Origin: Methylotenera mobilis JLW8
GTDB lineage: Bacteria > Pseudomonadota > Gammaproteobacteria > Burkholderiales > Methylophilaceae
NCBI RefSeq assembly: GCF_000023705.1
Contig: NC_012968.1
Span: 1,550,001 to 1,614,000 of the forward strand
DNA: 64,000 bases
Reading direction: 5' to 3'
Shown piece by piece: positions 2,509 to 64,000 of this stretch. The notes under the pieces are model-generated. The model was given only the letters and a program-made list of their open reading frames with translations. It did not search any database and was not told the origin of the DNA. Within the stretch, counting starts at the first letter, position 1, and each line of letters begins with the position of its first letter. Made by a program: the position numbers and the translations under genes.

Positions 2509-2513
2509 ATAAC

Positions 2514-2563
2514 GCAGATTTTATAACGGCGAGTGCCTAACAGCCGTTATAATCTGCCTTTTC
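2514..2563 (+). terminator. Terminator hairpin after tldD
   Basis: Left arm 2514-2530 (GCAGATTTTATAACGGC) pairs with 2543-2557 (GCCGTTATAATCTGC) with a 2-nt bulge and a 12-nt loop, followed by a short CTTTTC run. It lies 6 bp after the tldD stop and before mfd. Confidence 0.7.
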
Positions 2564-2585
2564 ATCGCAACACAATCATAAGCTC

Positions 2586-14353: not shown

Positions 14354-17046
14354 TACACACCACCCTGTGCATTCGCACCCTGAAACCGTTCAAATTGCAA
14401 TTTACGCTCGGGTAGCCGGAGCAGTGTAGTCACTTCGCAATACATCAGATCAGTGGCATCGCTAAAGCGCGTTGCAGCTTCTCCCGCCTTCAGTTCCAGT
14501 GCTATATCTTCAATTGATGCTTTCCAATGCTGTAACAAATGCGGCCAATCTACAAAGTTTTGGGTAAATGCTGGTTTACGCTTGGCTTGTTCCGTCTCAA
14601 AGTTCACTTCCCCCACTCCGCTAAACGCATGGTCAGCCACCTTCACCATCCCAAAATAAATGCCAGTGACAGCCTGTGTATTTTCCGCATAAAAGCTTGC
14701 GTAAATAGGCAGTTGTGGCTCAGTAATGCGGTCTTCACCCCAGTTTTTGGTTTTAGGCGTTTGCCCCGTTTTGTAGTCAATAAACTCTAAACCACCGTTT
14801 TCCAACTCATGCACCCGGTCAATTTTCAAGGTCACTTCTATCCCGCAAATCTGTACGAGTTTGCTTACTTCACAACCTATCATCTTAAATGCTACGCCAC
14901 GCTCTTTCTCAAACTGCAGCCAATCACCGACCAGGTTGAAAAGACGCTCGTGTTCCAACTCAAGTATCGCAGGGGAAGCCACGTCAGTCTCGGTCGCAAA
15001 ATCTTCTAACGTTAGACTCACCGCCTGTTTTAAAGCCAAGATAAAATCATCCGCGCTCATATCCCGTAAATCGGCAAAATGACGCTTATTCCAAAACCGC
15101 TCCAGCACATCGTGCACAAGTGAGCCGCGCATCATATTATCTAAACCGCTGGTGGGAGTTTTGAGTGCTTTCGCCCCTAGGCGATATTGATAAAATGCCC
15201 AGGCAGGGCAAATCGCCTGTGCTTTCAATAAACCGGTACCGCCCGAAACATGGTCACCCTCCTCCACTATTGGCGCCATGTGGTCATCCATATGCATCAG
15301 CGTTTCGTGCGCGCTAGCACTTAACTGCTCAGCTAGTGTTTCAGCCAAAGGGATATCCGTATCCAGCGTCGGAATATCATGCATCAATGGTGATGCACGT
15401 AGCTGACTCTCGCCAGACGTGCGACTGCTGGAAAACGTAATCTGCTGTGCCGAATGTAATAAACGGTGATGTATGGTTGCCGCAAACGTTGCCTGAATAC
15501 TGTCATCAGCATTAGGTAAACCTGCTGTACGCTGAATAAACGCTGGCAGCAATGGATTAGGACGTGCCGGCGGCGGCCAAATATGGTCATTCATATGCAT
15601 GCACCAAATCGCATCCACCGGTGCACTCAGGCCTTCCATAATGCCCAATATCTGAATCGCCGGCGTTTGTTCGGTTTCTGGCTGGAACACCTGGTTGGTA
15701 CAGATTTGCTGCAAATAAGCCACGGCCTGATTCGCAGAAATGCGTCTGCCCAAGACATCCAGCTGCGCTAGCTGCTGCAATGCTTTTTGCCATGCATTGA
15801 TTGCCTGATACTCCAAGCTACTGATAGTACGCTCGCCCGGCCAACGCATGTGCTCCAGCAACGTATCTAGCACTTCGCCCCACTGTGCCGCGTGTGCTAA
15901 TTTGCTCGGCACTGCAGCCACCACCGCGTTAAGGTCTTGCAACAACTGCTGCAAGTTCAGGCCTTCATCATGTTGCTTCTGTGCAAATGCAATAAAACTG
16001 GCCAAGGTAAACTGCGCGGGGAGTTTTTCACGCATCCTTGCGTCAAGCAACGCACGCGCATCCGCTTCTTGCTGGCTTGCAGACCAAAATGGAGAAAGCA
16101 ACATCGCGGAAACATCAGCATAGGCCAATTGATAAGCAGTCACCAATCGCAATAAATGCAGCGCGGCTTGCACCACGGGTTGCTGCGCCAGCGGTGTGCC
16201 TAAAGAAAAGTTATAACGGCGCGGTAACGCAGCCAAGCTAGGGCGCACACTTTCAGGGTAAAGCACGTCATCCAGTAAATCTGCCAGCTGGCTTCTCACC
16301 TCGCCCAAGCGTGGCGTCACTATCGCTATCACGGCATCAGGCTGCGCCGCTAAATATTGCGCTGCCCATGCTACGGCGGCACGGCACTCTGCATCATCAT
16401 GCTCCAAGCACACATGCTGCGCCTGTGCAGGTTCATTGGCTGTAGTGACGTAGTCTTCGACCTGCACACCGCGCGCTATTAGAATCTCCCGCAAACGCTT
16501 TTCCTGCGGCGCAGTCTGGTCAAAACCGGCAAACGCAATTCGGCATGGCAAGCCACTGCCCACATTAGCCAATTGAGAAAGCTGCCAATCTAAATAGCGC
16601 ACACTCTCTAGTGCGTTTAGCTCGCCACAGCGCGCCTGAAAAGCTTGCTGCCACAGTAAAAACTGACGCGTTTCTTCGGCCTGATGTTCACGTGGCACAT
16701 GCAGATGCCAAGCCACTACATAGCGGTTCGCTTCCATCGCAGCCTTGGCCAGGCCGGACACATCAAACAGCTCACCAAAAGCATTCTTTTTCAGTGACTG
16801 CGTAATCACCTCTTCCCATAGCAGCTGCTCATTAAAGCCGCTTAAGGCATAAGGTGAGTTCTGTGCGGCTAGCTCGCCAGTCAGCAATCCTATTTCAACA
16901 ACACTCTCTAACCATTGCGATAAGGTCTGTACATCAGGGCTATGCCACTGGTTTTGCTCTGCTTGTAGGTGCTGCTGTGCGATGTCGGTTTGAATACTGC
17001 GCGCCAAACGGGCAGACGGGCAAAGGATAAGCGTGTTTGAGGTCAT
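14353..17046 (-). CDS. AddB-like PD-(D/E)XK nuclease, inactivated-helicase type
   Basis: The second subunit of the AddAB-type complex, expected to process the opposite strand at a DNA end and recognise Chi-like sites. The 897-aa protein starts with TLILCPSARLARS, where the Walker A lysine motif is absent, and ends with a RecB-type nuclease carrying LEFIDYKTGQ near residue 755. No clear iron-sulphur cysteine cluster of the Firmicute AddB kind was recognised. It is first in a two-gene operon with the helicase gene. Confidence 0.85.
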   Translation of the reverse strand: MTSNTLILCPSARLARSIQTDIAQQHLQAEQNQWHSPDVQTLSQWLESVVEIGLLTGELAAQNSPYALSGFNEQLLWEEVITQSLKKNAFGELFDVSGLAKAAMEANRYVVAWHLHVPREHQAEETRQFLLWQQAFQARCGELNALESVRYLDWQLSQLANVGSGLPCRIAFAGFDQTAPQEKRLREILIARGVQVEDYVTTANEPAQAQHVCLEHDDAECRAAVAWAAQYLAAQPDAVIAIVTPRLGEVRSQLADLLDDVLYPESVRPSLAALPRRYNFSLGTPLAQQPVVQAALHLLRLVTAYQLAYADVSAMLLSPFWSASQQEADARALLDARMREKLPAQFTLASFIAFAQKQHDEGLNLQQLLQDLNAVVAAVPSKLAHAAQWGEVLDTLLEHMRWPGERTISSLEYQAINAWQKALQQLAQLDVLGRRISANQAVAYLQQICTNQVFQPETEQTPAIQILGIMEGLSAPVDAIWCMHMNDHIWPPPARPNPLLPAFIQRTAGLPNADDSIQATFAATIHHRLLHSAQQITFSSSRTSGESQLRASPLMHDIPTLDTDIPLAETLAEQLSASAHETLMHMDDHMAPIVEEGDHVSGGTGLLKAQAICPAWAFYQYRLGAKALKTPTSGLDNMMRGSLVHDVLERFWNKRHFADLRDMSADDFILALKQAVSLTLEDFATETDVASPAILELEHERLFNLVGDWLQFEKERGVAFKMIGCEVSKLVQICGIEVTLKIDRVHELENGGLEFIDYKTGQTPKTKNWGEDRITEPQLPIYASFYAENTQAVTGIYFGMVKVADHAFSGVGEVNFETEQAKRKPAFTQNFVDWPHLLQHWKASIEDIALELKAGEAATRFSDATDLMYCEVTTLLRLPERKLQFERFQGANAQGGV

Positions 17047-17122
17047 TGCACAATTCTATTGGATTATTTGTAATAGGCAAATAAAATAGCCGTACTCACA
17101 ACCTAAAGTCTAAAAACCAGCC

Positions 17123-17515
17123 ATGCTATCTCGCCTAAAAAAAATAATGACTTTTTTCACCTTTTTGGTGCTGCTACCCCTCGCGCTCTTTGCGCTATAC
17201 ACTTGGGCATCATTAAGCTGGGTTTACTCCTCTGGCGAGCGCGCGGGCTATGTGCAAAAACTCTCGCAAAAAGGTTGGATCTGCAAAACTTATGAAGGTG
17301 AGCTGATTTTAGTTTCCATGCCGGGCACACAGGCGGAGAAGTTCGCTTTTACGGTCAGAGATGCTAGCGTCGCAAAAAAAATCAATACAACCGTTGGCGA
17401 ACGCGTACGTCTAATCTATGAAGAGCATAAAGGTGTACCAACCACCTGCTTTGGCGAAACCAGCTTTTATGTCAAAGACGTAGAGTTACTAGACCCAACT
17501 AAAGCGAGCGACTAA
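17123..17515 (+). CDS. Unknown single-span membrane protein, 130 aa
   Basis: Function not recognised. Residues about 10-32 (FFTFLVLLPLALFALYTWAS) form one membrane segment or uncleaved signal anchor, preceded by positive residues, so the remaining ~95 residues are predicted to lie in the periplasm. Two cysteines (in WICKTY and TTCFGE) could form a disulphide. It is the first gene of a tight plus-strand run with greB, a DUF3147-like gene and earP, with only 7 bp before greB. It is divergent from the addB-like gene. Confidence 0.75.
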   Translation: MLSRLKKIMTFFTFLVLLPLALFALYTWASLSWVYSSGERAGYVQKLSQKGWICKTYEGELILVSMPGTQAEKFAFTVRDASVAKKINTTVGERVRLIYEEHKGVPTTCFGETSFYVKDVELLDPTKASD

Positions 17516-17522
17516 TTACCTC

Positions 17523-18008
17523 ATGGCCGCTACCGACGAAAAAAACTACATCACCCCTGAAGGTTTTGAAGCGCTCAGGGCAGAGTTTCATCAGCTCTAT
17601 AAAATTGAACGCCCTGAAATCGTACGCACCGTATCATGGGCTGCCAGCAACGGTGACCGCAGCGAAAATGGTGACTATATTTACGGCAAACGGCGTTTAC
17701 GCCAAATTGACAGCCGCTGCCGCCATTTAATGCGGCGTATGGATTTAGCGGAAATCGTAGATGCCAGCCAACAACAGCATCTGGAAAAAGTATATTTTGG
17801 CGCGTGGGTCACCTTATACAACCTGGACGATGACACTGAATATACTTACCGTATTGTGGGTAAAGACGAGCTCGAGCCCAGCAAAGGTTATATCAGCTGG
17901 GTGTCGCCACTGGCCAAATCCATACTAGGCAAATCTATCGGTGATACGGTACGCGCCGCCACACCCAAAGGTGAAGCAACTTTCGAAATCATCGAGATTA
18001 AGTACTAG
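17523..18008 (+). CDS. greB: Transcript cleavage factor GreB
   Basis: GreB enters the secondary channel of RNA polymerase and stimulates cleavage of backtracked transcripts. The 161-aa protein has the N-terminal coiled-coil with the acidic tip (NGDRSENGDYIYGKRRLRQID), which carries the D and E residues that coordinate metal, and the FKBP-like C-terminal domain (GYISWVSPLAKSILGKSIGD). The YGKRR form after the tip is typical of GreB rather than GreA. It sits in a close run with its neighbours. Confidence 0.94.
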   Translation: MAATDEKNYITPEGFEALRAEFHQLYKIERPEIVRTVSWAASNGDRSENGDYIYGKRRLRQIDSRCRHLMRRMDLAEIVDASQQQHLEKVYFGAWVTLYNLDDDTEYTYRIVGKDELEPSKGYISWVSPLAKSILGKSIGDTVRAATPKGEATFEIIEIKY

Positions 18009-18013
18009 CCGCC

Positions 18014-18364
18014 ATGAGTTACCTGATTATCAAATACCTGCTAACAGCACTGGCGATTGTGGTGATTTCTGAAACCGCGAAACTCAACGACAAGCTGGGT
18101 GGTTTAGTGGCTGCGCTGCCCCTGATTACTGTGATCAGCCTGATTTGGCTCTATATCGAACAACAGCCCACGGCTAAAATTGCCAACCACGCTTACTATA
18201 CGTTTTGGTATGTTATCCCCACGCTGCCGATGTTTCCGCTGTTTGCATGGATGCTACCAAGGTTCGGATTCTGGCCTACGCTCCTTACCTGTATCTTACT
18301 CACGGCTGTGCTGTTCTACGGCTACGCTCAGCTGCTCAAAATCTTCAATATTCACTTGCTGTAA
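18014..18364 (+). CDS. DUF3147-like small membrane protein
   Basis: A 116-aa integral membrane protein with four predicted segments: the N-terminal YLLTALAIVVISETA, the LVAALPLITVISLIWLYIE block, WYVIPTLPMFPLFAWML and the final LLTCILLTAVLFYGYA. The layout fits the DUF3147 family, which has no known function. It starts 5 bp after greB and ends 6 bp before earP, so it is very probably in the same transcript. No catalytic motif is visible. Confidence 0.8.
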   Translation: MSYLIIKYLLTALAIVVISETAKLNDKLGGLVAALPLITVISLIWLYIEQQPTAKIANHAYYTFWYVIPTLPMFPLFAWMLPRFGFWPTLLTCILLTAVLFYGYAQLLKIFNIHLL

Positions 18365-18370
18365 GAGATT

Positions 18371-19504
18371 ATGGCAAGCGATAAACATTGGGATATATTC
18401 TGCAAAATTGTCGATAACTTTGGTGACATCGGCGTCTGCTGGCGCTTGGCCAAACAGCTACACAACGAGCATCAGTTAACCATCTGCTTGTATATTGATG
18501 ACCTGTATGTCGCCAAGCAGCTGATTCCGGCCATCGATACTTCACTAGCACAGCAAACCATACAAAATATCTGCATCATTGTATGGCATGCAGATACCCA
18601 GTTCCCGCATGCGGCTCCGGTGGTGATTGAAAGCTTTGCCTGCGAATTACCGCCAACCTATCTCGCCACCATGCAGCCCAGCACGGTCTGGATTAATCTG
18701 GAGTATTTATCGGCCGAAGGCTGGGTTGATGATTTTCATGCCAACAGCTCAAAACGCGGTGCTTTAACCCGTCACTTTTTCTTCCCCGGCTTTACTCACA
18801 ACACCGGCGGCTTGTTACGCGAACATGCTATGCTGCAACAGCAGAGCCAAGTACCCGCGCAGCAGCCAGACCATTGGAAAGGCTTAGGCTTAACACCCAG
18901 CCAGCACCTGAAAGTATCATTATTCTGCTATCCGCATGCACCTATTTCCACACTATTATCGGCCATGGCGCAATCGACACAGCCGATTAACTGCTACGTG
19001 CCGGCCGGTAGCATTTTACCTAGTGTGGCTGACTTTTTCGGAAAGCCGTCATTACACATTGGCGATACGCTAAACCAACAAAACCTTACCTTGCATGTGA
19101 TTCCGTTTTTAAGTCAGGATGGTTACGATCAACTGCTAGCCTGCTGCGACATCAACTTTGTACGCGGTGAAGATAGCTGGATACGTGCCATTTGGGCGGG
19201 CAAGCCATTTATTTGGCAGCCATACCTGCAAACAGAACAAACCCACATTAAAAAACTACATGCATTTTTAGATTTATTTTACGCACAATGCCCACCTGCT
19301 CCCAAGGCGGCAGCGTATCAACTGCATAACGCATGGCAATCAGAACAAGTACCTAACACAGCATGGGATGATTATTTAAACAAGCTAACTGCACTTAAAA
19401 GCTATCACACCCTGCAAACGAATGCCCTTGCACAGCAAACAGACCTAGCGACTAAGTTGGTGATTTTTAGTGAGAAAATCATCAAAAGCACCACAGAAAA
19501 ATAA
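18371..19504 (+). CDS. earP: EF-P arginine rhamnosyltransferase EarP
   Basis: EarP transfers rhamnose from TDP-rhamnose to arginine 32 of elongation factor P, activating it to relieve ribosome stalling at polyproline. The 377-aa inverting GT-B enzyme has the N-terminal DNFGDIGVCWRLAKQL block and the C-terminal donor-binding block FVRGEDSWIRAIWAGKPFIWQ. The substrate gene efp follows 75 bp downstream and has the arginine EarP needs, which strongly supports the call. TDP-rhamnose synthesis genes are not in this window. Confidence 0.95.
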   Translation: MASDKHWDIFCKIVDNFGDIGVCWRLAKQLHNEHQLTICLYIDDLYVAKQLIPAIDTSLAQQTIQNICIIVWHADTQFPHAAPVVIESFACELPPTYLATMQPSTVWINLEYLSAEGWVDDFHANSSKRGALTRHFFFPGFTHNTGGLLREHAMLQQQSQVPAQQPDHWKGLGLTPSQHLKVSLFCYPHAPISTLLSAMAQSTQPINCYVPAGSILPSVADFFGKPSLHIGDTLNQQNLTLHVIPFLSQDGYDQLLACCDINFVRGEDSWIRAIWAGKPFIWQPYLQTEQTHIKKLHAFLDLFYAQCPPAPKAAAYQLHNAWQSEQVPNTAWDDYLNKLTALKSYHTLQTNALAQQTDLATKLVIFSEKIIKSTTEK

Positions 19505-53298: not shown

Positions 53299-53560
53299 CC
53301 TTCTTAATTGCATATTTGCTTAAAGTAGTGAGCTAAAAAATAATAAATGTAAATCTAATGTTTGAGAGAAACTTAGAAATCTGTGAGAATAAACTTAAAC
53401 ATTTTCATCCACTTCGTTGCTACAAAATTTCATAAGAAGTATCAATCAAAACTATTTCAATAATATAGCGCTGTTCGGTTACTAGCTATAACTATCAATA
53501 AGTTACCAACCTTAATGTCACAAAAAAAAGGCCTTAATATAAAACCTTTCAATTTCATTT

Positions 53561-53708
53561 CCGACAAACTTTATTCCCAGCCGACAGACTTAATTAATTT
53601 ATATCAATTATGGTGATAAGAACTAATAAAGTCTGTCGAGACATAGCAAGATAACTATATGAATTTTAATATATTGCATTATTAGCGAAATGCATTCAAA
53701 GTCTGTCT
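53561..53708. repeat. Four copies of a 15-bp repeat in divergent pairs
   Basis: Unit (Y)CGACARACTTWATT. Two copies read on the plus strand at 53561-53575 and 53581-53595 (20 bp apart). Two read on the minus strand at 53624-53638 and 53694-53708, the last one less conserved. The inverse core AATAAAGTCT also occurs in Tn7 TnsB-binding sites as I recall them. They may be transposase-binding sites of the element end; an operator array for the RES gene (75 bp downstream) is the alternative. Confidence 0.6.
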
Positions 53709-53769: not shown

Positions 53770-55065
53770 TTGAAGAAAATAAAAATGATTTGCATACATT
53801 GTGTTTCTCCAGAACCGCTCAAGAAATTTTTTATTGGGCAAGCTATTCAAACTTGTAAATATTGTGGCGAAGACGCTATAGCGATTGAATCGAGTTTATT
53901 TTTTGATGGAATTCTTAAACTGATAGATGAAAACACCGCTACAGAAGATGATTTATCACCATACGAATATGGGATGCTTTATGAATGTGGTGCAGAAGAT
54001 ATTTCAATCGCAACCTTAGATGTGGTTCTTGCCGAATGGATAAGTCTCGACAATGAGCCTTACTTTAACGACCTTTATGAATATGCTCCTAGGAAATACA
54101 AAGTTAATCTTAGTAATATCGATCGCCATTACTTTGGCGATGATGGGATGCTAGAAAAGAATTTTTACGAAGAGAGATGGGAAAAATTCATTGACGACAT
54201 CAGACACTCACATCGCTTTTTCAATCCAAACGCTAAAGAGTTTCTGGACTCAGTTTTTGCTTTTCTCTCTATCGATAATTTGTTGAAACCTGAATGCGTT
54301 CGGACTATTTTAAAAGGCACCCCACTTTATCGTGCTCGGTCTGCTTCTACCTATGAGGAAATCAAGAAGATTGCAGATGATCCAGCAAGTCAACTTGGAC
54401 CAACACCGAAGGACAGAGCCAGTAACCAACGGATGACTCCCAATGGTATTTCGGCTTTGTACTGTGCTCTGGAGAGAGAGACTTGTTTGAGCGAGATCCG
54501 ATCCATAACAGGTGACAACGTGGTAAGCGTCGCCATGACCCCTACTAATGAGCTCCGACTTCTAGATTTGACTAAGTTAGAGCTTGTTGAACCCCCTCAA
54601 TTGACTCTCTTGGACAATGGCTATCGTAATGCATTACACCTTAAAACATTCATTAGTACCCTTGTAAAGAAAATGTCGAAACCCAAGGGTCGCAATGACG
54701 ATTTGAGCTACCTATCCACACAAGTTGTCTTTGAATACCTTAGGCTCCGTTTTGGCGGTCAGGTAAACGGGTTGGTCTTTCCTTCGGTACAAACAGGAGA
54801 ACAAGGTACTAACGTGGTCTTCTTCCCTGAAGTAAGCATTGTAAGTGCAAAGAACTTTCGGAATGAGTCCAAACATATAAGCGTTAAAACTGAAAAGCAT
54901 GAAGAGGAGCCATTTGAAGACGGAGCCATGCTCTACTGTCTTCCGAACTCCCTACGATTCCATAAGGTTAAGGCCATCGAAACTAAAGCTCATGAATACA
55001 CCCATATCGGTGAACTGTTCATAAGCGACCTGAATAGAAAACGACTGGGAATCTCTGAGCATTAG
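53770..55065 (+). CDS. RES-domain protein with zinc-ribbon and HEPN-like N-terminal part
   Basis: A 431-aa protein. Residues 8-32 hold two CxxC pairs (CIHC, CKYC), a likely zinc ribbon. Residues about 40-175 are an acidic helical part of the HEPN/RES N-terminal type. From about 185 a RES domain follows: LYRARSA, NQRMTPNGISALYCALE and CLSEIRS, with Arg188/Arg190, Tyr231 and Glu242 as candidates for the NAD-degrading active site. RES proteins in Xre-RES toxin pairs degrade NAD; no Xre antitoxin is adjacent. The start is TTG at 53770 or ATG at 53785; neither has a clear ribosome binding site. Possibly a defence effector. Confidence 0.8.
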   Translation: MKKIKMICIHCVSPEPLKKFFIGQAIQTCKYCGEDAIAIESSLFFDGILKLIDENTATEDDLSPYEYGMLYECGAEDISIATLDVVLAEWISLDNEPYFNDLYEYAPRKYKVNLSNIDRHYFGDDGMLEKNFYEERWEKFIDDIRHSHRFFNPNAKEFLDSVFAFLSIDNLLKPECVRTILKGTPLYRARSASTYEEIKKIADDPASQLGPTPKDRASNQRMTPNGISALYCALERETCLSEIRSITGDNVVSVAMTPTNELRLLDLTKLELVEPPQLTLLDNGYRNALHLKTFISTLVKKMSKPKGRNDDLSYLSTQVVFEYLRLRFGGQVNGLVFPSVQTGEQGTNVVFFPEVSIVSAKNFRNESKHISVKTEKHEEEPFEDGAMLYCLPNSLRFHKVKAIETKAHEYTHIGELFISDLNRKRLGISEH

Positions 55066-55159: not shown

Positions 55160-55789
55160 TTATTTTAACTCCTGAAAATAAGCATCGAAATTCACTCTTC
55201 TTGATTTAGGTAATGCGGCACGTAATCGTCGGTACTGCCAGTATTCTAAATCTCCAACCTGATCAACAACTCTTCCACGTCTTGTATTGATACGGAAATC
55301 TGCTGAATTGAAAGTAAATCCATTTTGCTTGCAATATACGGAAATCATTAACAATTGCTTAGCGCTATATCCTAGTTTCCAGGTTGTGCGCCACGATATT
55401 TGTGCAAACTTATCGGGATGTTTTTTAGCGAGTTTGCTTAAAAGATCAAAAGCTCTCTCTTCTCTTGACTGATTTTCATATTCCGTTTGGCGACGGCGAA
55501 GTAGACTTGCTTTAGCCTCTTCACCAATTATCTCGCGACCATTCTCAAATAATGGGATGAACTTTGTGATGCAGGTAGAGCCGACCCAAAGAGTTTTGCG
55601 AGTAGTTAAGTTTTCAATTTCATATTGATAACGTAGCCCTTCATGCTCACATAGTTCGCATACCTCTTCGATGTTATGGCTATCTTCATAACCGCCTGTA
55701 GTTACCCATTCGCGTAATGCTTCTGCTAGATTGTTAGCTCTAGATAGATGCAAGATATTCGCTGTAGCTTTTTCTGCCCAATTTGTCAT
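55160..55789 (-). CDS. Zinc-finger protein at the end of the ubiquitin-like operon
   Basis: A 209-aa protein of unknown function. Residues 44-76 read CELC, then ENLTTRKTLWVGSTCITKF, a CxxC plus VGxxC arrangement seen in small zinc-binding domains of phage and island proteins. The rest is basic and helical (SREERAFDLLSKLAKKHPDKF and a C-terminal Arg-rich stretch RRLRAALPKSRRVN), suggesting nucleic-acid binding. It follows the DUF6527 gene by 63 bp on the same strand and is convergent with the RES gene. It could be a co-transcribed accessory or an independent passenger. Confidence 0.65.
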   Translation of the reverse strand: MTNWAEKATANILHLSRANNLAEALREWVTTGGYEDSHNIEEVCELCEHEGLRYQYEIENLTTRKTLWVGSTCITKFIPLFENGREIIGEEAKASLLRRRQTEYENQSREERAFDLLSKLAKKHPDKFAQISWRTTWKLGYSAKQLLMISVYCKQNGFTFNSADFRINTRRGRVVDQVGDLEYWQYRRLRAALPKSRRVNFDAYFQELK

Positions 55790-55852
55790 GTGGTTTCCCC
55801 AGTGGCCAACTGCCTAGCCAAAATCAAAACAATTTAATGAGTATATATTAAG

Positions 55853-56266
55853 TTATTTAAAAAAATTTCGGATCCATAGCCAAAGTTGCGGAATAATGTC
55901 CTTTGACGATTTATCAGTGGTCGAAGCATATATTTCTGCATCAGCACGATCCAACTTGCGTACATGTGCAATCTGCTTATCAGACATTTTTGCCGCCCAT
56001 TTAATTTGTCCGTGCTTTATCCAGTAATGTGATTTACATGGAAAACTCCAATTACCAACGGAAGGAAAGAGAGAGACAGACTTGCCATGATCGGTTAAGG
56101 CCCACTTGGCAGCATTAAGTGGTGTAACAACTTTATGTCCACATCCACAGCAACATAGATGAGAAGCAGTTTTGTATTTTAGTGAGATGTAGAGAATTCC
56201 AGGCTGTAAATGTTCAGGAATATACTCTACATACTCATGCTTAACAGATTGCTGCTGCCCCATCAT
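55853..56266 (-). CDS. DUF6527 protein, putative Ubl processing/deconjugating enzyme
   Basis: A 137-aa protein matching what I know as DUF6527: the cysteine cluster CCCGCGHK (Cys38-42), PSVGNWSFPCKSHYWI (Ser69, Cys77, His80) and the GQIKW strand. These proteins are encoded with multiubiquitin-type Ubl and ThiF genes, and recent work on Bub pathways treats such a partner as a protease; that role is from memory and not shown by the sequence. Its ATG overlaps the E1 stop by 4 bp (ATGA), so the two are coupled. An inactive zinc-binding role is the alternative. Confidence 0.75.
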   Translation of the reverse strand: MMGQQQSVKHEYVEYIPEHLQPGILYISLKYKTASHLCCCGCGHKVVTPLNAAKWALTDHGKSVSLFPSVGNWSFPCKSHYWIKHGQIKWAAKMSDKQIAHVRKLDRADAEIYASTTDKSSKDIIPQLWLWIRNFFK

Positions 56267-57432
56267 TCGTCCTCGTTAACCATTTCATTGGCCGCTATCG
56301 AATAGCTAATAAAGTGGGCATCTGATGAGTCCCGAAAAAAACCAAATACCTTTTTCCATCGTATCACCGCTAAACATGCATTCAAAGCATTCAGTTCAGC
56401 AATCTGAATGTTGGTTGAATATTCATCTTCAGGGGCATCACCTTCAGAAAAATTGATTTTGTTTAGAACCTTGTCATGAACTTCTTTTGTACCTGTCACA
56501 ACCCTTATTATCCCAGATAGGCTGTCATTACTACGTACTACCCCCATGCCTACTTCGATAAAAGGTATACCAAGCTGTATCAACGTTGCTACGATGGCTT
56601 TTTTTGATGCTCCACGGTCTAAACAGAGAAAAACAAAATCAAGTCCATTAAGTTGATTGGATGTAGAGCTGTCTATGTATGTCTCATGGATCACCAACCC
56701 GTGTCGCATTTTTGCATAGACACTTTCTAAATACATTACTTTTGAGGGTTTAATCTTTAACTCATCGATTGATGCCGCTCCCGGAGTGCGGAATGCATTA
56801 TGTTGGGAAAAAACATCTCCATCGAAAAGATGGATTTCCTTAACACAAGTTTTAGCTACTAGATCCAGAACATAAGACCCCGTGCCACCTAAACCAACAA
56901 TTCCGATTCGCTGTCCGGCTAACTTTTCGTTGAAGTTACCAATATTGACCCGACTTGAAGCGGTATCTTGATATTTAAATACCGATTCATTTTCTTCCGT
57001 AGGGATTACTGGATACGTTTCAGCTGTAGCAGCTGCATCAATAACCTGTGCTTCACCTGTAATCCGACCAATATAGGTTGTCATTTTATGATGATAGTCA
57101 CGATATTCTGCTTTCGCTGAAAAAGTGAAGTCAACCTTTAGACCGTTGCCTAAATCTTGAGGTGCACTAGGATTCTGTATCGTAGCAATTACTGCTCCTG
57201 TACTGTGGCATGGGTGTTCTCCAACCCAATAAGCAACGTGATCGCTAGGTCTGTTGGTAATGTCTCCATTCAATTCAAGCCTAGATACTAGTGTTCCTAG
57301 TTTTACCTCACGACTTGCGTTTACATAGGGAACATCTTTTATAAGAAGATAACCATGTTGAATATCAAGATCTAAACCTTGATTCCTGAGTTTTTGTAAG
57401 TCAGGGCTATGAGCGATTAGTTGATGTGACAT
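56263..57432 (-). CDS. ThiF-family E1-like enzyme with N-terminal DUF6791-type domain
   Basis: A 389-aa fusion. Residues 1-140 form a family-specific domain (YWVGEHPCHSTG at 68-79; FSAKAEYRDYHHKMTTYIG at 104-122) that I associate with DUF6791. Residues about 170-389 are a ThiF/E1 adenylation domain: GLGGTG at 180-185, FDGDVF and HN..R at 203-215, CLDRG at 270-274, IPFIEVGMGV at 289-298. It should adenylate the C terminus of the adjacent Ubl. Cysteines are only at 75, 196, 270 and 353; none lies in the crossover stretch 300-345. Its start overlaps the Ubl gene by 26 bp. Confidence 0.88.
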   Translation of the reverse strand: MSHQLIAHSPDLQKLRNQGLDLDIQHGYLLIKDVPYVNASREVKLGTLVSRLELNGDITNRPSDHVAYWVGEHPCHSTGAVIATIQNPSAPQDLGNGLKVDFTFSAKAEYRDYHHKMTTYIGRITGEAQVIDAAATAETYPVIPTEENESVFKYQDTASSRVNIGNFNEKLAGQRIGIVGLGGTGSYVLDLVAKTCVKEIHLFDGDVFSQHNAFRTPGAASIDELKIKPSKVMYLESVYAKMRHGLVIHETYIDSSTSNQLNGLDFVFLCLDRGASKKAIVATLIQLGIPFIEVGMGVVRSNDSLSGIIRVVTGTKEVHDKVLNKINFSEGDAPEDEYSTNIQIAELNALNACLAVIRWKKVFGFFRDSSDAHFISYSIAANEMVNEDE

Positions 57433-57679
57433 CGAATTCCATCCCTTCTTTCACTTTAACTGATTGACCTTCTACTAAGGTGCCTTTTGGTTTATCTGAG
57501 TGTCCTTTTGTATATTGAATTGTGAATTGGACACCATCACCAGTAGGGGGCGTTTCATATGCCAATGCCACAATTTCCTCAAATGACATACGTTCTTTTT
57601 CTACTGATTTAGCAGCGCCATTGATAATAATTGTTACCACTTTTGCTTCTTTATTTTTTCCAGCATTTTCGATACTCAT
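57407..57679 (-). CDS. Multiubiquitin-type ubiquitin-like protein
   Basis: A 90-aa beta-grasp protein of the multiubiquitin (Multi_ubiq) type, here a single domain: IIINGAAKSVEKERMSFEEI, then FTIQYTKG, GTLVEGQSVKVKEGMEFDV and the end TSTNRS. It is the presumed modifier of the adjacent E1. There is no C-terminal Gly-Gly; the protein ends in Ser. The frame is open to a TTG at 57694, but GGAG lies 9 bp before the ATG at 57679, which is chosen. It is first in the operon and divergent from the sigma-like gene. Confidence 0.85.
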   Translation of the reverse strand: MSIENAGKNKEAKVVTIIINGAAKSVEKERMSFEEIVALAYETPPTGDGVQFTIQYTKGHSDKPKGTLVEGQSVKVKEGMEFDVTSTNRS

Positions 57680-57880
57680 AATTTGTTGCTCCAATCTATT
57701 GTTGAGTCGGGTTTAAACAGACAGTGGATATTGCAGTATTAAAATTTAGTAAGTCATAACATCGTTAGATACTTGATATCATTAAGCTAATGATTCACTA
57801 TCTGTATTAAGTTAGTTACAACTACTAAGCTTTTTTCTGCATTACCATGTCGTATATATAAAGACTGACAGCAACTACTT

Positions 57881-57918
57881 TGCGGACGAAAAAAATAAAT
57901 TTATTTAAAACGTCCGCA
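57881..57918. promoter_or_regulatory. 38-bp imperfect palindrome between the divergent cassettes
   Basis: Perfect 8-bp arms TGCGGACG (57881-57888) and CGTCCGCA (57911-57918) enclose a 22-bp A/T-only spacer whose centre (AAATAAATTTATTT) is itself palindromic. GC-rich arms in AT-rich DNA stand out. It lies 48 bp before the sigma-like gene and about 200 bp before the Ubl gene, fitting an operator for the plus-strand cassette or both. The binding protein is unknown. Confidence 0.6.
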
Positions 57919-57966
57919 TGGAGTAACACAACAGTCTAATAGTTTGATAGGTTTGGGAGTCATGCA

Positions 57967-58521
57967 ATGTCAGATGAAACATCACTAAGCAAATCTGAAG
58001 TTGAAGCGGCATTGACGCAGATGTCGCCTGCCGATTGGAAGCGTATAAAAATCAAAGCTCGAACCTATTCCAAAGCGCTTACATACTTAACGGCAGATGA
58101 CATAATTCAAGAAGCATTGATCAACTTGCTATCTGGAGACCGTGTGTGGCCTAGAAGTGCAAGATCAGTAATTGTAGTTATTAATGCAATGCATAGTGAA
58201 GCTTCTAACTGCAGGGAACGAGAGCAGTCTGGAGCTATCGATCATCGAGTTGATATTTCTGTATTGTCGCAACAGTATGATGAAGATGCTGGAACTTTAG
58301 TAATGCCTATCAATGAAGTGACCCCAGAAAGAATCGTTGAGTCTCGTGGTGACATTGAAGCTATAGAAAGATTAGTCGAAAATGATGAAGAGTTACAAGA
58401 TGTGGTGCTTGTATGGAGCTTAGGAATTCGCGGCAAAGATGCTGCCATAGAGTTAGGCTGGGAAATGAATAAGTACGAGGCTGCGAGAAAACGCCTTACA
58501 CGCCTACTTGAGTCATTGTGA
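57967..58521 (+). CDS. Sigma-70-like (ECF-type) factor
   Basis: A 184-aa protein with a region-2-like stretch (LTADDIIQEALINLLSGDRVWP, about residues 40-60) and a C-terminal helix-turn-helix of region-4 type (DVVLVWSLGIRGKDAAIELGWEMNKYEAARKRLTRLLES), joined by an acidic linker. This is the layout of small alternative sigma factors, though the sequence is divergent. GGGAG lies 7 bp upstream of the ATG. It leads a three-gene cassette with a helical protein and an ImmA/IrrE peptidase and is divergent from the Ubl operon. Confidence 0.75.
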   Translation: MSDETSLSKSEVEAALTQMSPADWKRIKIKARTYSKALTYLTADDIIQEALINLLSGDRVWPRSARSVIVVINAMHSEASNCREREQSGAIDHRVDISVLSQQYDEDAGTLVMPINEVTPERIVESRGDIEAIERLVENDEELQDVVLVWSLGIRGKDAAIELGWEMNKYEAARKRLTRLLESL

Positions 58522-58531
58522 GGAGAACCAA

Positions 58532-58927
58532 ATGACTGATACTACACATAAGCAAGATGAACTACGTAAATTTTTTAAGACTCAGCTTGACGAGTTGCTT
58601 GAAATGTCTGATGAGGAAATTCTTGAAGGTTCAGACCCTGAAGTACTAAAAATTGAAGGTATGGCAATGATTGCAGCTGCGAAAGCAAAGATTGGCGGGA
58701 GGCGAATGGCTGCAGCAAAAGCAGCAATGGCAAATAGAAAAGTCTCGACTTCACCAATAATTAGCGCAGTCAATATTGATGATGCTCGTGCTTATCTTCA
58801 GGCAGCAGCGAATGATTCTCGAATAACTATTGCTGCTAGATCATTAGGAGAAATGTCAGATGCGGATATTATCAGAATGTATACCCAACTTAATAAATTG
58901 CAGCAAGACATTAGCGGCTCTAAGTAA
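58532..58927 (+). CDS. Unknown helical protein between sigma and IrrE genes
   Basis: A 131-aa protein, not recognised. It is mostly helical and Ala/Asp/Glu-rich (FFKTQLDELLEMSDEEILEG, AAAKAKIGGRRMAAAKAAMA, then LGEMSDADIIRMYTQLNKLQ). No membrane segment. An in-frame ATG at 58508 lies inside the sigma gene; the ATG at 58532 follows AGGAG well and is chosen. Its position between a sigma-like gene and a peptidase gene suggests an anti-sigma or adaptor, which would be the peptidase's target; this is inference only. Confidence 0.7.
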   Translation: MTDTTHKQDELRKFFKTQLDELLEMSDEEILEGSDPEVLKIEGMAMIAAAKAKIGGRRMAAAKAAMANRKVSTSPIISAVNIDDARAYLQAAANDSRITIAARSLGEMSDADIIRMYTQLNKLQQDISGSK

Positions 58928-58933
58928 TATCTT

Positions 58934-59752
58934 ATGAACCCTGCTGTACGCGCTGAAAGTCTCATAAATGAATTATGTATTTCATCTGCAAATGAAATTG
59001 ATGTAGAAGTTATTGCTTTCGATTCTGGGATTGAGATTTTATACGAGCGTCTCTATGGCTGCGAAGCTACACTGGTTGGTTTTGGTTCAAAAGCAATCGC
59101 AACGATTAGTCCATCTTCAAGCCGAGGCAGGGAGCGCTTTTCAATTGCGCATGAAATAGGACATTGGCTTATGCATAGAGGAAAATCTTTTCGTTGCAGA
59201 GTTGATGATATTGTCCAAAATTACGAAGCTAACATCCAACTGGAAAAAGAGGCGGACTTATTTGCATCTCATTTGTTGATGCCAACTTGCTTATTTCAAC
59301 CAGCTATCAAAGCAGCAAACCGTCCAGGACTGAGAGACCTTCAAGAAATAGCCAATCAATTTGATGTCAGCCTTCAAGCCGTGTCCATACGATTGGCATT
59401 GCTGGATTCGCTTCCAGTAATTGTTGCCTGTTACAACAAGGCTGGACTCAAATGGTCATTAAAATCCCCTCATATTCCCAAGAGATGGTGGCTGTGTCAG
59501 AAGCTGGATGAGGATAGTTTCGCATACGACTTGCTTTACTCTGGCAAGCTCTGTCCACGGCTTGCGAAGCAGCCTGCAGAAACTTGGTTTGAAAATGATG
59601 ACGCGGATCAATATGAAATACTTGAGCAGTGCATGGTTTCAACAAAAGATCATGTTCTTGTACTGCTATATTTAAACGACCCAGAAATGTTTAATGTTGG
59701 ATTTGATCCTAATGTAGGGAAATCGCGTTTTAGCGTAAAAACCTCTTGGTAA
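58934..59752 (+). CDS. ImmA/IrrE-family metallopeptidase
   Basis: A 272-aa protein with the zinc motif HEIGH at residues 73-77 (RFSIAHEIGHWLMH) and the third ligand Glu in EKEADLFASHLLMP (about 106). The N-terminal ~160 residues are the peptidase; the C-terminal ~110 residues (VIVACYNKAG to the end) form a separate, uncharacterised domain that may sense a signal. ImmA/IrrE proteases cut repressors of mobile elements (ImmR, DdrO). It starts 6 bp after the helical gene, so the three are one operon. Confidence 0.88.
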   Translation: MNPAVRAESLINELCISSANEIDVEVIAFDSGIEILYERLYGCEATLVGFGSKAIATISPSSSRGRERFSIAHEIGHWLMHRGKSFRCRVDDIVQNYEANIQLEKEADLFASHLLMPTCLFQPAIKAANRPGLRDLQEIANQFDVSLQAVSIRLALLDSLPVIVACYNKAGLKWSLKSPHIPKRWWLCQKLDEDSFAYDLLYSGKLCPRLAKQPAETWFENDDADQYEILEQCMVSTKDHVLVLLYLNDPEMFNVGFDPNVGKSRFSVKTSW

Positions 59753-59778
59753 TTTCAATAACTTTAATAATTATTAAT

Positions 59779-60126
59779 TCAATTTGCTTGTTGTTGTACT
59801 AATGTCTTTTTTTTAGTGAATTCGAAGGTTACATCCCGATGCGTAATAGGTAAATACTTAATTATCAATGCACGTTTAATTATTTGCAATTCTGAGTTTT
59901 TGGGATCCCCAGGCTCATCTATCAATTGGTAAATTCTACCGCTTTCTGTCTTACCTATTTTGTTTTGAGGATACCACTCAACTATCTTTGTAGATACTCC
60001 TCCACATCCATCAATACTTTCACAGAAATAATATGCATCTCCCTCGATGGTTTGAAGTTCTTGTATGACCATAGATTTGTAAACTAAATAACTAGGAGAT
60101 ACTACTCCAATACTCTTTATGGCCAT
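59779..60126 (-). CDS. Unknown 115-aa protein at the end of the transposition operon
   Basis: Function not recognised. The sequence is beta-rich and soluble (VYKSMVIQELQTIEGDAYYF, CESIDGCGGVSTKIVEWYPQ). Its ATG overlaps the stop of the TniB-like gene (TAATG), so it is translated with the transposition genes. In related elements a target-selection (TniQ/TnsD) gene could stand here, but there is no zinc-finger TniQ motif and the protein is too short. It is convergent with the IrrE gene. Confidence 0.65.
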   Translation of the reverse strand: MAIKSIGVVSPSYLVYKSMVIQELQTIEGDAYYFCESIDGCGGVSTKIVEWYPQNKIGKTESGRIYQLIDEPGDPKNSELQIIKRALIIKYLPITHRDVTFEFTKKKTLVQQQAN

Positions 60127-61436
60127 TACAAACTATCACGAAACTTTTTGGCATTATTTATCAACTCTTGACTGTTAAGTTTATTGTTCTTACCTAGGGG
60201 AACAACATTATTTTTATTTTTCTTAAAAGTTGATTGAATTTCCTTCGCGGCTTTACGTTCAGGGCCAGTTAATGCTGATTTAAGCTCCATTTCTGCAACC
60301 AAGTCATTTCTATGCGCTCTAGCATCCTCAAAAAATTGAGTTGCTGCATCCTTGGGCATTGGCAACGAGCACCACAAATCAGCTCTGCCTTTGTGAGGAT
60401 GATTGAGTATCATTTGATTGAGAATAATTTCAGAATCTTTGCGATAGCTTGAAAACTCATATGATTTGTAGGCACGCTCCAATGCTGACATATCAATCAA
60501 CCCTTTTGATGGATAGACAATTCTAAATGCTTCGCAGATTAATCGCCTAGTTGCACGCTTTCTACCAGCAGTCATTATATAAATTCTTTTTGCGTCACTC
60601 TCTGCATCAAACTTGATTATTTCTGGCGCAACTTCCTTTTGGAATCCTAAAGTATTCATCCAGCACTCTGAATTGTAAGAGTCAGGACGTAGCACTATTG
60701 GGTTTGATAATAACCTCTCAACTTCTTCAACTGGCCTGCGTTGTAACTTATTAAGTAGACTAAAATTTGCACAAAACATCCATGGCACACCTACGTAACA
60801 TAAAGATAATAACATTTGAGAAATAATCGTATTAGCCGTGCTTGAACTAGTAGCAAACTGGAACTCATCAGCGATAATAAACGGAATGGAGTCCCTGTAT
60901 GATTGAAATCTAGCTACGTAATTAAGATTTTTTGCGTCACTATTCGTTAAAGCTTTCATCAAATCATTAACACTTTTCCTAGGGCCGATCGTAATTAACT
61001 TGGGAGTTGCCATTACAAATGGTGAGTGATATTGATTTAACTCTATATATTGTTCGCAACCCATAACCCGTAAAAACGCTTTTAATAAACTAGTTTTTCC
61101 AATTCCAGCCAGCCCCGTTAAACAAATAGGTAGCTCAAATTGCTTAAGCGGCACATCTTCGTCATATATACCCATTAAAAAATTTTCGATATCACTATAA
61201 GTAAGCCGATAATGGGCATCTGCTGCCCCAATCAATCTTGCAAGTATGTCAACACATTGATTAGTAGGATAAAACGTTTGATCTAAAAGAGACTCTAGTT
61301 TTGCGCATGCCAACTCAATAGGTAATGAATAAAGATCCTCTAAGGGAGAGACTCTTACTGTAGCCAGTTCTTTTATTCGCTCTTTATTCAATAAGTCAGC
61401 AAATCGATGAGCCCATGGATTGATTTTATTCTGCAT
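60126..61436 (-). CDS. tniB: TniB/TnsC-like AAA+ transposition ATPase
   Basis: The regulator ATPase that links target choice to the transposase. The 436-aa protein has Walker A GLAGIGKT at residues 108-115, Walker B IIADEF at 187-192, and conserved WMFCANFSLLNKLQRRPVEEVERLLSNPI with an arginine-rich sensor region. It is longer than Tn5053 TniB because of a C-terminal lysine-rich tail. The start overlaps the transposase stop by one base (TGATG). Confidence 0.88.
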   Translation of the reverse strand: MQNKINPWAHRFADLLNKERIKELATVRVSPLEDLYSLPIELACAKLESLLDQTFYPTNQCVDILARLIGAADAHYRLTYSDIENFLMGIYDEDVPLKQFELPICLTGLAGIGKTSLLKAFLRVMGCEQYIELNQYHSPFVMATPKLITIGPRKSVNDLMKALTNSDAKNLNYVARFQSYRDSIPFIIADEFQFATSSSTANTIISQMLLSLCYVGVPWMFCANFSLLNKLQRRPVEEVERLLSNPIVLRPDSYNSECWMNTLGFQKEVAPEIIKFDAESDAKRIYIMTAGRKRATRRLICEAFRIVYPSKGLIDMSALERAYKSYEFSSYRKDSEIILNQMILNHPHKGRADLWCSLPMPKDAATQFFEDARAHRNDLVAEMELKSALTGPERKAAKEIQSTFKKNKNNVVPLGKNNKLNSQELINNAKKFRDSL

Positions 61437-63469
61437 CAGGCTACCCTAGACCTTCTTAAGTTAGTTGAGGCTGAATGGATAACTTCGTTGGTTTCTTGTC
61501 GAGATTTATCATTCTTAACGGGACGACCTTTCTTGCGACTACCACCTTCATAATCCTTGCCTACATCCTCTTCAAACCTTACCTGAGCATCAACATGAAC
61601 AGCATGAGCATGCAAACGAAAAGCAGACTGGACAATCTTTCTATTTTGATTCCAATCATTCAACTCGTCGATTGAAGTGAAAAGTGTCTCTGAATCGCCC
61701 CTTATCCTGAGCATTGCCGGCACTTCAATTAACCTACCGCTAACATCAACCCAAATGTAGCGTGTACACATATCCATCATATATCCGCTAACTTTTGTAA
61801 CACCTGGCATATCAAATAAACCTGACTCTCTGAGTGATTCAGAAAAATATAATCTCCCTAAAAGGTAAATACCATCCTCTTTAACCGTAAACTCAACAGG
61901 ACTTAAAAACGCCCTAACAGCATCGTCAAATGAGATTGGTTGTGCATCGTTACGATAAAGTTGATCGTAATGCTTCCATAATCCATTGGGGGATGGGGTT
62001 ACATCTATCATTTCTGAATCAGGGTCAATCCTATCCTCCATGTTTGCACTTTCATTGAAAGTAATCAGTCTTCTAATTTCTCTTCGTGCAAGTTGAACAG
62101 GTGTTAAACCGCTTTCAACATAAGTAGGCTGGCCTTCGATTGAAATATCTCTAGGGTGACTAGATTCAACAGTTGCTTTAGATTGCCCAGAATAAGATGG
62201 TGACATATCTTTGATTGGAATAATCTTTTCTAAGCGCTCAATTAGATCTTTAGATGAACCAGGTCCTCTATCTACAGTAAAATGAGGAGGTAATCCTTCA
62301 CTCATCCATTCATTCTCCTTGAGACTAATTCCAAAATATCGACAAAATGCATGTTTTGGAATTGCCATCGAGAACAACATCATTCTGTATGCTGTTAACC
62401 TTTCCTCTCCAAATGAAAAACCAATGCCAAGCTTGCTCCCAGAAAGCAGGTCTCGACCTACTACCACACATAAAGGGGGCAAAGTTGAGCCCTCAACATA
62501 ACCTCGGGGAAAGTCAGATGTATAGTATCCATCAACTTCAACGCGCTCGTACAAATTTGAAATTTCTTCTGAGAATCGGCCTTTTGAATTCGAAAGCTTA
62601 GTTCTAACACGCACTTCCCCATAAATTTTTATTTGAATCTGCTCTTGGCTGTAAGCTTTTTTCACCTGATATCTGAACTGATCGTATGTGGGGAAAGCGC
62701 TTTCATTTTTACTAATCAGAATTTTCATTCCTTTTTTCTGAATACTTAAATGACAATTAAAATACTTAACCATTGCCCCCCTATAGATCGACACCATAGA
62801 TTTACCTAACACAGCTAAATTATCAAAACTATCAACGCAGCGCTTAGCAAGATCAGTGGACATACCATAGCCATAATTTCGCCCCTGAGACTTTGATGGG
62901 GCTCCAAATTTAGTATCTGGATGTTTTAAGCGGTTCCAATTCCCACTATTATGAAAAGGAGGTAATAGTGACCATATATTTCTTCCAAAAATTAGATATG
63001 TCAAAAACCATAATGTGTATCTGGAAATGTTTTGTGAAGTTTCACACCGTTGAGCATACCTACTGATTTCTTCTTGTGGAGACTTCGCTTTTAATATTTC
63101 AGCACTATTAGTTACAGCCTCTGTAATAATCTTAAATCGTTCTGTCACTCGAGTTGAATGACTAACTTTAGGCTTACCCGTTCTGTAGTCATCAATTCTG
63201 GAAAGATCATATCCTTCAAACTTCTCTAACCATGGTGGCAATGTGTTTTGTGTTTCACACATTAAAATTGAATTCTGTTTTACTCCAGCTTCAAAGGTTT
63301 GCTGATTAACCGACACCAAACTTGCTTTTATAGCCTTCTTTTCTGCATATTCAAAAAATACCAATAAAACACGTCTACTGTTTGAATCACTGTTTAAAAA
63401 ATAATACTCAATTTCTTTACATATTGACTTCCACCCTTCTGGAGCATGTATCTTAGCGCCTATCTTCAT
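61436..63469 (-). CDS. tniA: DDE transposase of the Mu/TniA/TnsB type
   Basis: The 677-aa integrase-fold transposase. The DDE triad is visible: Asp313 in YERVEVDGYY, Asp400 in HFTVDRGPGSS and Glu435 in QSKATVESSHPR. An N-terminal helix-turn-helix and a C-terminal Mu-C-like beta-barrel (IYLLGRLYFSESLRESGLF, RYIWVDVSGRLIEVPAM) flank the core. The C-terminal tail is basic (RKKGRPVKNDKSRQE). The start overlaps the TnsA-like stop by 4 bp. Confidence 0.9.
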   Translation of the reverse strand: MKIGAKIHAPEGWKSICKEIEYYFLNSDSNSRRVLLVFFEYAEKKAIKASLVSVNQQTFEAGVKQNSILMCETQNTLPPWLEKFEGYDLSRIDDYRTGKPKVSHSTRVTERFKIITEAVTNSAEILKAKSPQEEISRYAQRCETSQNISRYTLWFLTYLIFGRNIWSLLPPFHNSGNWNRLKHPDTKFGAPSKSQGRNYGYGMSTDLAKRCVDSFDNLAVLGKSMVSIYRGAMVKYFNCHLSIQKKGMKILISKNESAFPTYDQFRYQVKKAYSQEQIQIKIYGEVRVRTKLSNSKGRFSEEISNLYERVEVDGYYTSDFPRGYVEGSTLPPLCVVVGRDLLSGSKLGIGFSFGEERLTAYRMMLFSMAIPKHAFCRYFGISLKENEWMSEGLPPHFTVDRGPGSSKDLIERLEKIIPIKDMSPSYSGQSKATVESSHPRDISIEGQPTYVESGLTPVQLARREIRRLITFNESANMEDRIDPDSEMIDVTPSPNGLWKHYDQLYRNDAQPISFDDAVRAFLSPVEFTVKEDGIYLLGRLYFSESLRESGLFDMPGVTKVSGYMMDMCTRYIWVDVSGRLIEVPAMLRIRGDSETLFTSIDELNDWNQNRKIVQSAFRLHAHAVHVDAQVRFEEDVGKDYEGGSRKKGRPVKNDKSRQETNEVIHSASTNLRRSRVA

Positions 63470-63999: not shown

Positions 64000-64000
64000 C

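Follow-up and report, generated by a model that had tools for sequence, protein, structure and literature searches.

Several bacterial systems that couple a ubiquitin-like modifier (Ubl) to an E1 enzyme have been described. The structurally characterised Bub system of Citrobacter (BubA, BubB and BubCD; PDB 9ea4, 9eae and 9eav) includes, in the available part of its description, an E2 enzyme and a JAB-E1 fusion. The Bil E2 carries a CEHH motif, and Bil also has a JAB/JAMM protease, according to the accessible part of its source (PMC11354881). A further type, the class 6e or 'domain X' operons, was predicted in 2006 (Iyer et al. 2006, PMC1779556), and the accessible part of that paper gives it a Ubl or polyUbl, an E1 in which a distinct domain replaces JAB, and a small protein with the metal-binding signature Cx3C-x(35-38)-Hx2C, and lists it with an inactive E2/RWD domain. 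In the part of PMC13373217 (EMBO J 2026) that was available, CapW or CapH+CapP is reported at 219 of 544 Bub operons, both are said also to control known immune operons, and protection against phage by Bub is described as not demonstrated. In a literature search that had most subscription journals outside its range, no paper was found on DUF6791, DUF6527, PRK06153 or multi-ubiquitin domain-containing proteins.

An operon encoding proteins related to these was examined in the window, the whole 64,000-nucleotide stretch of Methylotenera mobilis JLW8 DNA that was analysed. It is read here, with a probability of about 0.6, as a compact ubiquitin-like conjugation system that forms a sister branch of Bub without a recognisable E2 or JAB and travels as cargo of a Tn7-like transposon.

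A coupled operon of three genes

The Ubl, E1-like and DUF6527 genes are all open on the minus strand and are followed by a fourth gene:

57407..57679, minus strand: ubiquitin-like modifier, one Multi_ubiq domain, 90 aa (PF14452, E=2.6e-18)
56263..57432, minus strand: E1-like enzyme, DUF6791 (residues 10-157; Pfam, 3.3e-52) plus ThiF adenylation domain (168-297 by Pfam, 5.9e-14; fold to 389)
55853..56266, minus strand: DUF6527 protein with helical C-terminus (PF20137, 3.2e-24; AF2 pLDDT 85.3)
55160..55789, minus strand: 209-aa Cys-containing protein, C-x2-C by eye

The Pfam matches of the first three proteins are all above the curated cut-offs, and an alternative TTG start at 57694 would give a Ubl of 95 aa. 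The first-pass annotation had placed these three genes in a single coupled operon, and the coordinates and reading frames bear this out, with overlaps of 26 bp between Ubl and E1 (57407-57432) and 4 bp between E1 and DUF6527 (56263-56266). It had also described a zinc-finger gene after the operon; the gene is present 63 bp downstream, but its product belongs to no Pfam family and homologues were found in only two of 35 relatives (L014 and L016). This gene is part of the movable cassette described below and not of the conserved operon.

The 35 relative loci, which carry labels from several phyla and are in many cases metagenome bins, were obtained by a scan of genome contigs that started from the window's E1 and used the peptide YRDYHHKM. 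The Ubl gene lies upstream of the E1 gene in 34 of them and the DUF6527 gene downstream in 33; the locus without a Ubl (L047) has a truncated E1, and at the two without DUF6527 (L015 and L045) the contig ends before the DUF6527 position. These counts include L047 as well as L036, in which the E1 frame is shifted relative to that of its Ubl. The 26-nt overlap is kept in 32 of the 34 relatives having a Ubl. As the scan had begun from the window's own E1, a sample of 398 genomes of the same phylum was also used, in which DUF6791 was found in eight genomes, the window's genome among them, and the order Ubl-E1-DUF6527 in all eight. Neighbours that never pair in other genomes had been named by the first-pass annotation as grounds for rejecting it; the neighbours found pair consistently, and the association of the three genes is far above chance. 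The E1 was detected in 114 of 72,556 plasmid records (E<=1e-20) and in none of 50,697 phage records (E<=1e-5). The ubiquitin-like operon is real, conserved and mobile.

Comparison with Bub, Bil and class 6e

The three families had at first been matched to the Bub pathways, and a ubiquitin-like system related to Bub is indeed what was found, but the E2 and the JAB-E1 fusion were not, DUF6791 being present instead. Neither BubB/Prok-E2_E (profile of five sequences) nor JAB (profile that recovers its five training loci) was detected at any of the 35 loci, and in the 398-genome sample the eight DUF6791 genomes did not overlap with the eight genomes having Prok-E2_E matches. One DUF6791 genome (G190) carries a Prok-E2_B gene, more than 1 Mb distant. 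The window branch shares with canonical Bub an E1 fold of the BubC type, a Ubl of the multiubiquitin family, an adjoining DUF6527 gene, Cap-type regulators and a tyrosine (Y338) tentatively matched to BubCD Y370, whereas it differs in lacking a detected BubB-type E2 or JAB, in having DUF6791 and in its Ubl ending in TxxS. By the features tested, it is not canonical Bub. A Ubl and an E1 are also shared with Bil (BilABCD), but the E2 and JAB/JAMM protease given for Bil in the available part of its source were not found here, the E2 query being the Prok-E2_E profile.

With class 6e, as set out in the accessible part of PMC1779556, the operon shares a Ubl beside an E1 and a distinct domain, here DUF6791, where JAB would lie, together with a small, probably metal-binding Cys/His protein; the inactive E2/RWD domain listed for the class was not recognised in the window branch. 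The C38-x3-C42-x34-C77-x2-H80 arrangement of DUF6527 is similar to the class 6e signature given there, but is one residue short and has Cys and His swapped. It is most likely that the operon represents a sister branch of Bub predicted in 2006, domain X presumably being DUF6791 and domain Y DUF6527. Because this operon class has already been published and its parts are named in plasmid records, the novelty is limited. What is usefully added is a DUF6527 common to both branches, the failure to find an E2 or JAB, the constant end of the Ubl, the link to M78 proteases and the recurrent carriage by Tn7-like elements.

The E1-like protein and DUF6791

In NCBIfam, the E1 is a 659-bit equivalog match to PRK06153.1-4, which is named 'hypothetical protein'. 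Absence of an E1 fold in the 389-aa protein was another ground for rejection that had been named, and a ThiF fold was found: in a comparison of residues 145-389, which covers the ThiF half and lies outside most of DUF6791, the solved BubCD ranked first, with MccB, MoeB and ThiF also strong matches. The ThiF half aligned with five canonical Bub E1s in hhalign at 98.8% (E=5e-17). Residue conservation was examined in alignments A1 (E1), A2 (DUF6527) and A4, comprising 28, 19 and 21 of the rows available, and in A5 (E1; 37 rows). All 28 rows of A1 share the ThiF glycines, D204, N212, R215, K231, D272 and Y338, and Y338 aligns with BubCD Y370, though within a gapped stretch with an alignment confidence digit of 3 of 9. 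C75, located in DUF6791, is the sole invariant cysteine of the E1 alignments and is kept in 37/37 rows of A5. H114 and H115 were dropped as invariant residues; they had seemed so in the first 28 rows because the scan peptide contains them, and are kept in 32 and 30 of the 37 rows of A5, respectively.

DUF6791 had no E2 match in a PDB profile search or in a Pfam scan of 37 members. Alignment by hhalign with five Prok-E2_E sequences (0.2% and 0.1%) and eight Prok-E2_B sequences (0.9%) gave no E2 homology, but the positive control, Prok-E2_E against Prok-E2_B, also failed (1.2%), and the hhalign negatives therefore decide nothing on E2 kinship at this depth. The predicted order of elements in DUF6791, namely helix, strands, loop and helix, resembles the UBC/RWD fold.

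The modifier and its C-terminus

The Ubl is predicted to adopt a beta-grasp fold from its Pfam family and from a match over residues 14-90 to PDB 9cd2, a 'multi-ubiquitin domain protein' (E=1.6e-9). A search with the Ubl profile (E<=10) did not recover Citrobacter BubA. The C-terminus reads FDVTSTNRS, with glycine absent and Ser, not GG, at the end. The end pattern is V-T-x-T-x-x-S, in which the second T and the S (TxxS) are invariant in 35/35 aligned rows, and the crystallised 9cd2 protein has a similar end, VTQTDKS, in its last domain, which suggests that a Ubl of this branch has already been studied. As TxxS is invariant while E1 residues 3-10, which overlap the frame of the Ubl end, vary (27 of 28 rows used), the mature end of the Ubl is apparently encoded directly, which would agree with a system that has no JAB protease.

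A terminal serine in place of GG would also suit a different chemistry, in which the E1 and Ubl act, in the manner of MccB or ThiF, on a small molecule, on a peptide or on the Ubl itself, or in which the Ubl has a structural role or forms filaments and its end is adenylated and nothing more. The strong fold matches of the E1 to MccB, MoeB and ThiF, and the failure to find a separate E2 in the 35 loci, point the same way. This is considered unlikely, and conjugation by a sister branch of Bub is the preferred reading.

DUF6527

A Cys/His set (H36, C38, C40, C42, C77 and H80) is invariant in the 19 rows of A2, where conservation is dense, and DUF6527 is probably metal-binding. Its model had no fold match with Foldseek or VIA, which does not imply a new fold, and no match to a peptidase fold. 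The gene lies after that for the E1 in all eight DUF6791 genomes of the sample. It also follows the E1 gene in four of five canonical Prok-E2_E operons, being ~1.4 kb further along in the fifth, and occurs without DUF6791 or Prok-E2_E in 6 of 19 genomes. DUF6527 is thus a component common to canonical Bub and the DUF6791 branch.

The catalytic novelty could lie in DUF6527 and not in DUF6791, if DUF6527 were a metallo-deconjugase that replaces JAB and makes the system reversible, and both the densely conserved Cys/His set and the failure to detect JAB at 35/35 loci would agree with this. However, as DUF6527 is also found beside canonical operons that do contain JAB, it is no mere replacement for JAB, and the lack of a peptidase fold match also argues against a deconjugase. 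This role is considered quite improbable; it would be compatible with the preferred reading, a Bub-related conjugation system, in all but one-way tagging.

Regulators upstream of the operon

Three genes are divergent from the operon, and a candidate operator lies in front of them:

57881..57918: candidate operator, inverted repeat TGCGGACG-N22-CGTCCGCA (script search, 8-bp arms)
57967..58521, plus strand: candidate regulator, divergent from the operon, with a weak resemblance to sigma-70 ECF factors (TIGR02937, E=0.032, below cut-off)
58508..58927, plus strand: 139-aa partner in the regulatory trio, no Pfam family, homologues in L014, L015 and L016
58934..59752, plus strand: CapP-type M78 metalloprotease with HEIGH motif (PADLOC capP, 3.7e-61; PF06114, 6.2e-18)

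The sigma-like regulator co-occurs with CapP in the same three relatives. A CGGACG...CGTCCG inverted repeat is found in front of the regulator at all four trio loci, with 8-bp arms by script in three of the four and the shorter CGGACG/CGTCCG arms by eye in L015; as 34 to 116 out of 500 shuffled sequences also contained an 8-bp repeat, a single locus alone is not significant. The arrangement resembles CapH+CapP in that a CapP-type M78 protease is divergent from the operon, but its partners are the weakly sigma-like protein and the 139-aa protein and not a recognised HTH repressor. CapH was not recognised in the trio, and Pfam detected no HTH family in either partner gene.

It is likely that the CapP-type protease is a DNA-damage sensor or switch beside the operon. 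An M78-like protein is encoded upstream in 29 of the 35 relatives. Among the six without one, L038 and L047 are on short contigs, no M78 was found upstream in L041, L042 and L046, and L017 encodes a GHKL ATPase with a small partner at the positions that CapK and CapS would have. The M78 match lies within an ORF of more than 1000 aa in 12 of the 35, and the one such ORF scanned (L033) has UvrD helicase and PD-(D/E)XK domains besides M78. Pfam scans of neighbours covered selected genes only. In the E1 tree, the loci with long M78 ORFs cluster on a weakly supported branch (48/34); the tree omits L045, L047 and L051 (the window itself), and its regulator labels were assigned by hand, those of L065, L067 and L069 from an annotated UvrD gene and that of L068 from an unannotated gap. 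No homology was found between the window's sigma-like and 139-aa regulators and the regulators of the UvrD-type relatives. A WYL regulator replaces M78 in two of eight plasmid records viewed.

Regulators of stress-sensing kinds (M78, the GHKL ATPase of L017 and WYL), together with an E1 present in plasmid but not in phage records, would also be expected if the operon served a stress response or were selfish transposon cargo and not anti-phage immunity, a reading that rivals only the defence role. As the accessible part of PMC13373217 places known immune operons, too, under the control of CapW and CapH+CapP, their kind does not speak for stress alone, and this alternative is regarded as somewhat unlikely.

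Proposed mechanism

We infer conjugation, every transfer step, induction and any role in defence or in DNA-damage survival from features that were computed, namely gene content, E1 and Ubl kinship, conserved residues, regulator linkage and transposon ends. DNA damage or phage attack would make the CapP-type protease active, and repression of the divergent operon would be relieved. The ThiF domain of the E1-like protein would then adenylate the C-terminal serine of the Ubl, for which trimming would be unneeded because the Ubl gene already ends at this serine. The acceptor of the Ubl would lie within the E1-like protein itself, at C75 in DUF6791 and/or at Y338, the tentative counterpart of BubCD Y370, and DUF6791 would take over the role of the missing E2 before transfer to target proteins. 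DUF6527, as a metal-binding accessory common with canonical Bub, would most likely act in target choice or ligation.

In its fullest form, the proposal would have a single polypeptide serve as both E1 and E2, passing the adenylated, serine-terminated modifier to targets via C75 or Y338, with no deubiquitinase and hence one-way tagging. M78 proteases that sense ssDNA, in some relatives as M78-helicase-nuclease fusions, would turn the system on, and Tn7-like transposons would have spread it on repeated occasions; this complete scheme is tentative and on balance rather unlikely. If the E1-like protein does conjugate alone, it would amount to a minimal ubiquitin-like ligase with which the contributions of E2s and deubiquitinases could be studied, and the presence of DUF6527 in both branches and the frequent M78 neighbour offer handles on target choice and switching-on.

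The Tn7-like transposon and its cargo

The operon lies in an element of 36.75 kb that spans 53614 (TGATA...) to genome position 1640363 (...TATCA), with the following features:

53614..53707: left end, terminus TGATA, with TnsB-type sites at 53624-53638 and 53698-53707
53770..55065, plus strand: RES-domain protein, left-end cargo (PF08808, 8.7e-14; HEPN_RES_NTD1, 0.011, below cut-off)
60126..61436, minus strand: TnsC/TniB-type ATPase, weak (NACHT, 8.9e-4, and AAA_22, 0.0054, both below cut-off)
61436..63469, minus strand: TniA/TnsB-type transposase (PDB 7pik Tn7 TnsB, E=2e-4 over residues 161-550)
63466..64467, minus strand: TnsA by position, 333 aa, past the window end at 64000
genome 1640300-1640363: right end of the element, repeated TnsB-type sites

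The transposase has no Pfam family over cut-off and matches the DDE transposase of a Klebsiella element in BLASTP (2e-8). A 134-aa piece of TnsA matched PF08721 below cut-off (E=0.068), and the full-length protein had no Pfam match up to 0.1. Two target selectors are encoded in the element, one with TnsD (6.6e-31) and TniQ (3.2e-12) matches (L002:16045-17529) and one with TniQ (6.2e-11; L002:18065-19396). Carriage on a Tn7-like transposon, as first proposed, is thus borne out by genes of the TnsB, TnsD and TniQ types and by both ends; of the TnsA, TniA and TniB named at that stage, the TniA/TnsB-type transposase holds up, but TnsA, which runs off the window, and TniB are only weakly recognisable.

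Tn7-like elements are flanked by a target duplication of 5 bp. Here ATGG (4 bp) is found on the outer flank of each end, and the right end is 16 bp beyond the stop codon of a gene identified by eye as amtB. The element shares with Tn7-like transposons its TnsB, TnsD and TniQ homologues, repeated TnsB-type sites at the ends and insertion beside a gene end, but differs in its position next to amtB, its 4-bp flanking repeat and its weakly recognisable TnsA/TnsC.

A 4.58-kb stretch (55175-59754), comprising the Bub-like genes, the regulatory trio and most of the 209-aa gene, is 90.7% identical in a Methylotenera MAG contig (L014), where no such transposon ends were found in the available flanks. 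The flanks searched in the 35 relatives, which extend for up to 6 kb, contained no homologue of the element's TniA, TniB or TnsA, and among 369 genomes of the class the window's genome alone had the tandem end motif. In L015, the operon is immediately inside a similar transposon end, and in a Klebsiella plasmid (CP120875) a related operon is beside annotated TnsD, ATP-binding, DDE and TnsA genes, the TnsD (3e-18) and transposase (2e-8) being related to those of the window element and the TnsA and ATPase not significantly so. The first-pass annotation had offered the transposon as the explanation for the spread of the system; carriage by Tn7-like elements is recurrent (window, L015 and Klebsiella plasmid), but is not shown to be the rule. 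The E1 tree places the window and L015 in a starred set of 12 rows that does not include the plasmid copy, which suggests at least two captures of the operon by Tn7-like elements. Further genes of the window element resemble metal efflux genes (by eye).

Insertion site and content of the Tn7-like transposon

The Tn7-like transposon carrying the operon was found to lie next to a gene identified by eye as amtB, the right end of the element being situated 16 bp beyond the stop of this gene (genome coordinates 1640363–1640380; window coordinate 90363). The amtB gene is not a known attachment site of Tn7-like elements. A second, diverged right end adjoins the left end of the transposon (window coordinates 53390–53608; sites at 53562 and 53582), as if the same site were occupied in tandem by two related elements. 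A second set of sites was present in one relative (L015; coordinates 104–2435), suggesting that a small element of ~2.3 kb, with an integrase-core (rve) gene, is in tandem with the operon-carrying element there.

The transposon encodes both a TnsD-type protein and a second TniQ-type protein (coordinates 16045–17529 and 18065–19396 of stretch L002), suggesting that it has two ways of choosing targets. Its right half carries as cargo several genes that, judged by eye, resemble those for cation efflux proteins and heavy-metal P-type ATPases (stretch L003; genome coordinates 1621123–1638861).

Genes associated with the operon and its relatives

In relative L033, the polyUbl operon is directly downstream of a gene for a 1134-aa protein (coordinates 1776–5180) that combines an M78 protease domain with those of a UvrD helicase and a PD-(D/E)XK nuclease, possibly a DNA-end sensor fused to its protease. 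Comparable long ORFs with an M78 match were found in 12 of the 35 relatives. In four relatives, the M78 regulator gene is flanked by a gene pair for an AAA ATPase and a subtilase; the pair was identified by a scan in L021 (coordinates 1285–4720) and by similarity in L022–L024.

In the window, a gene for a RES-domain protein (coordinates 53770–55065) with no visible antitoxin is located near the operon. A RES and Xre-type pair, identified using Pfam, is beside the operon in L033 (coordinates 7664–8398), and homologues of this pair are immediately 3′ of the DUF6527 gene in L034, L035, L038 and L047.

In the 398-genome phylum sample, DUF6527 copies were also located away from any gene for DUF6791 or Prok-E2_E, the E2 family of canonical Bub, in genomes G255, where this is a second copy, G350, G062, G166, G348, G059 and G278, indicating that the family has further settings.
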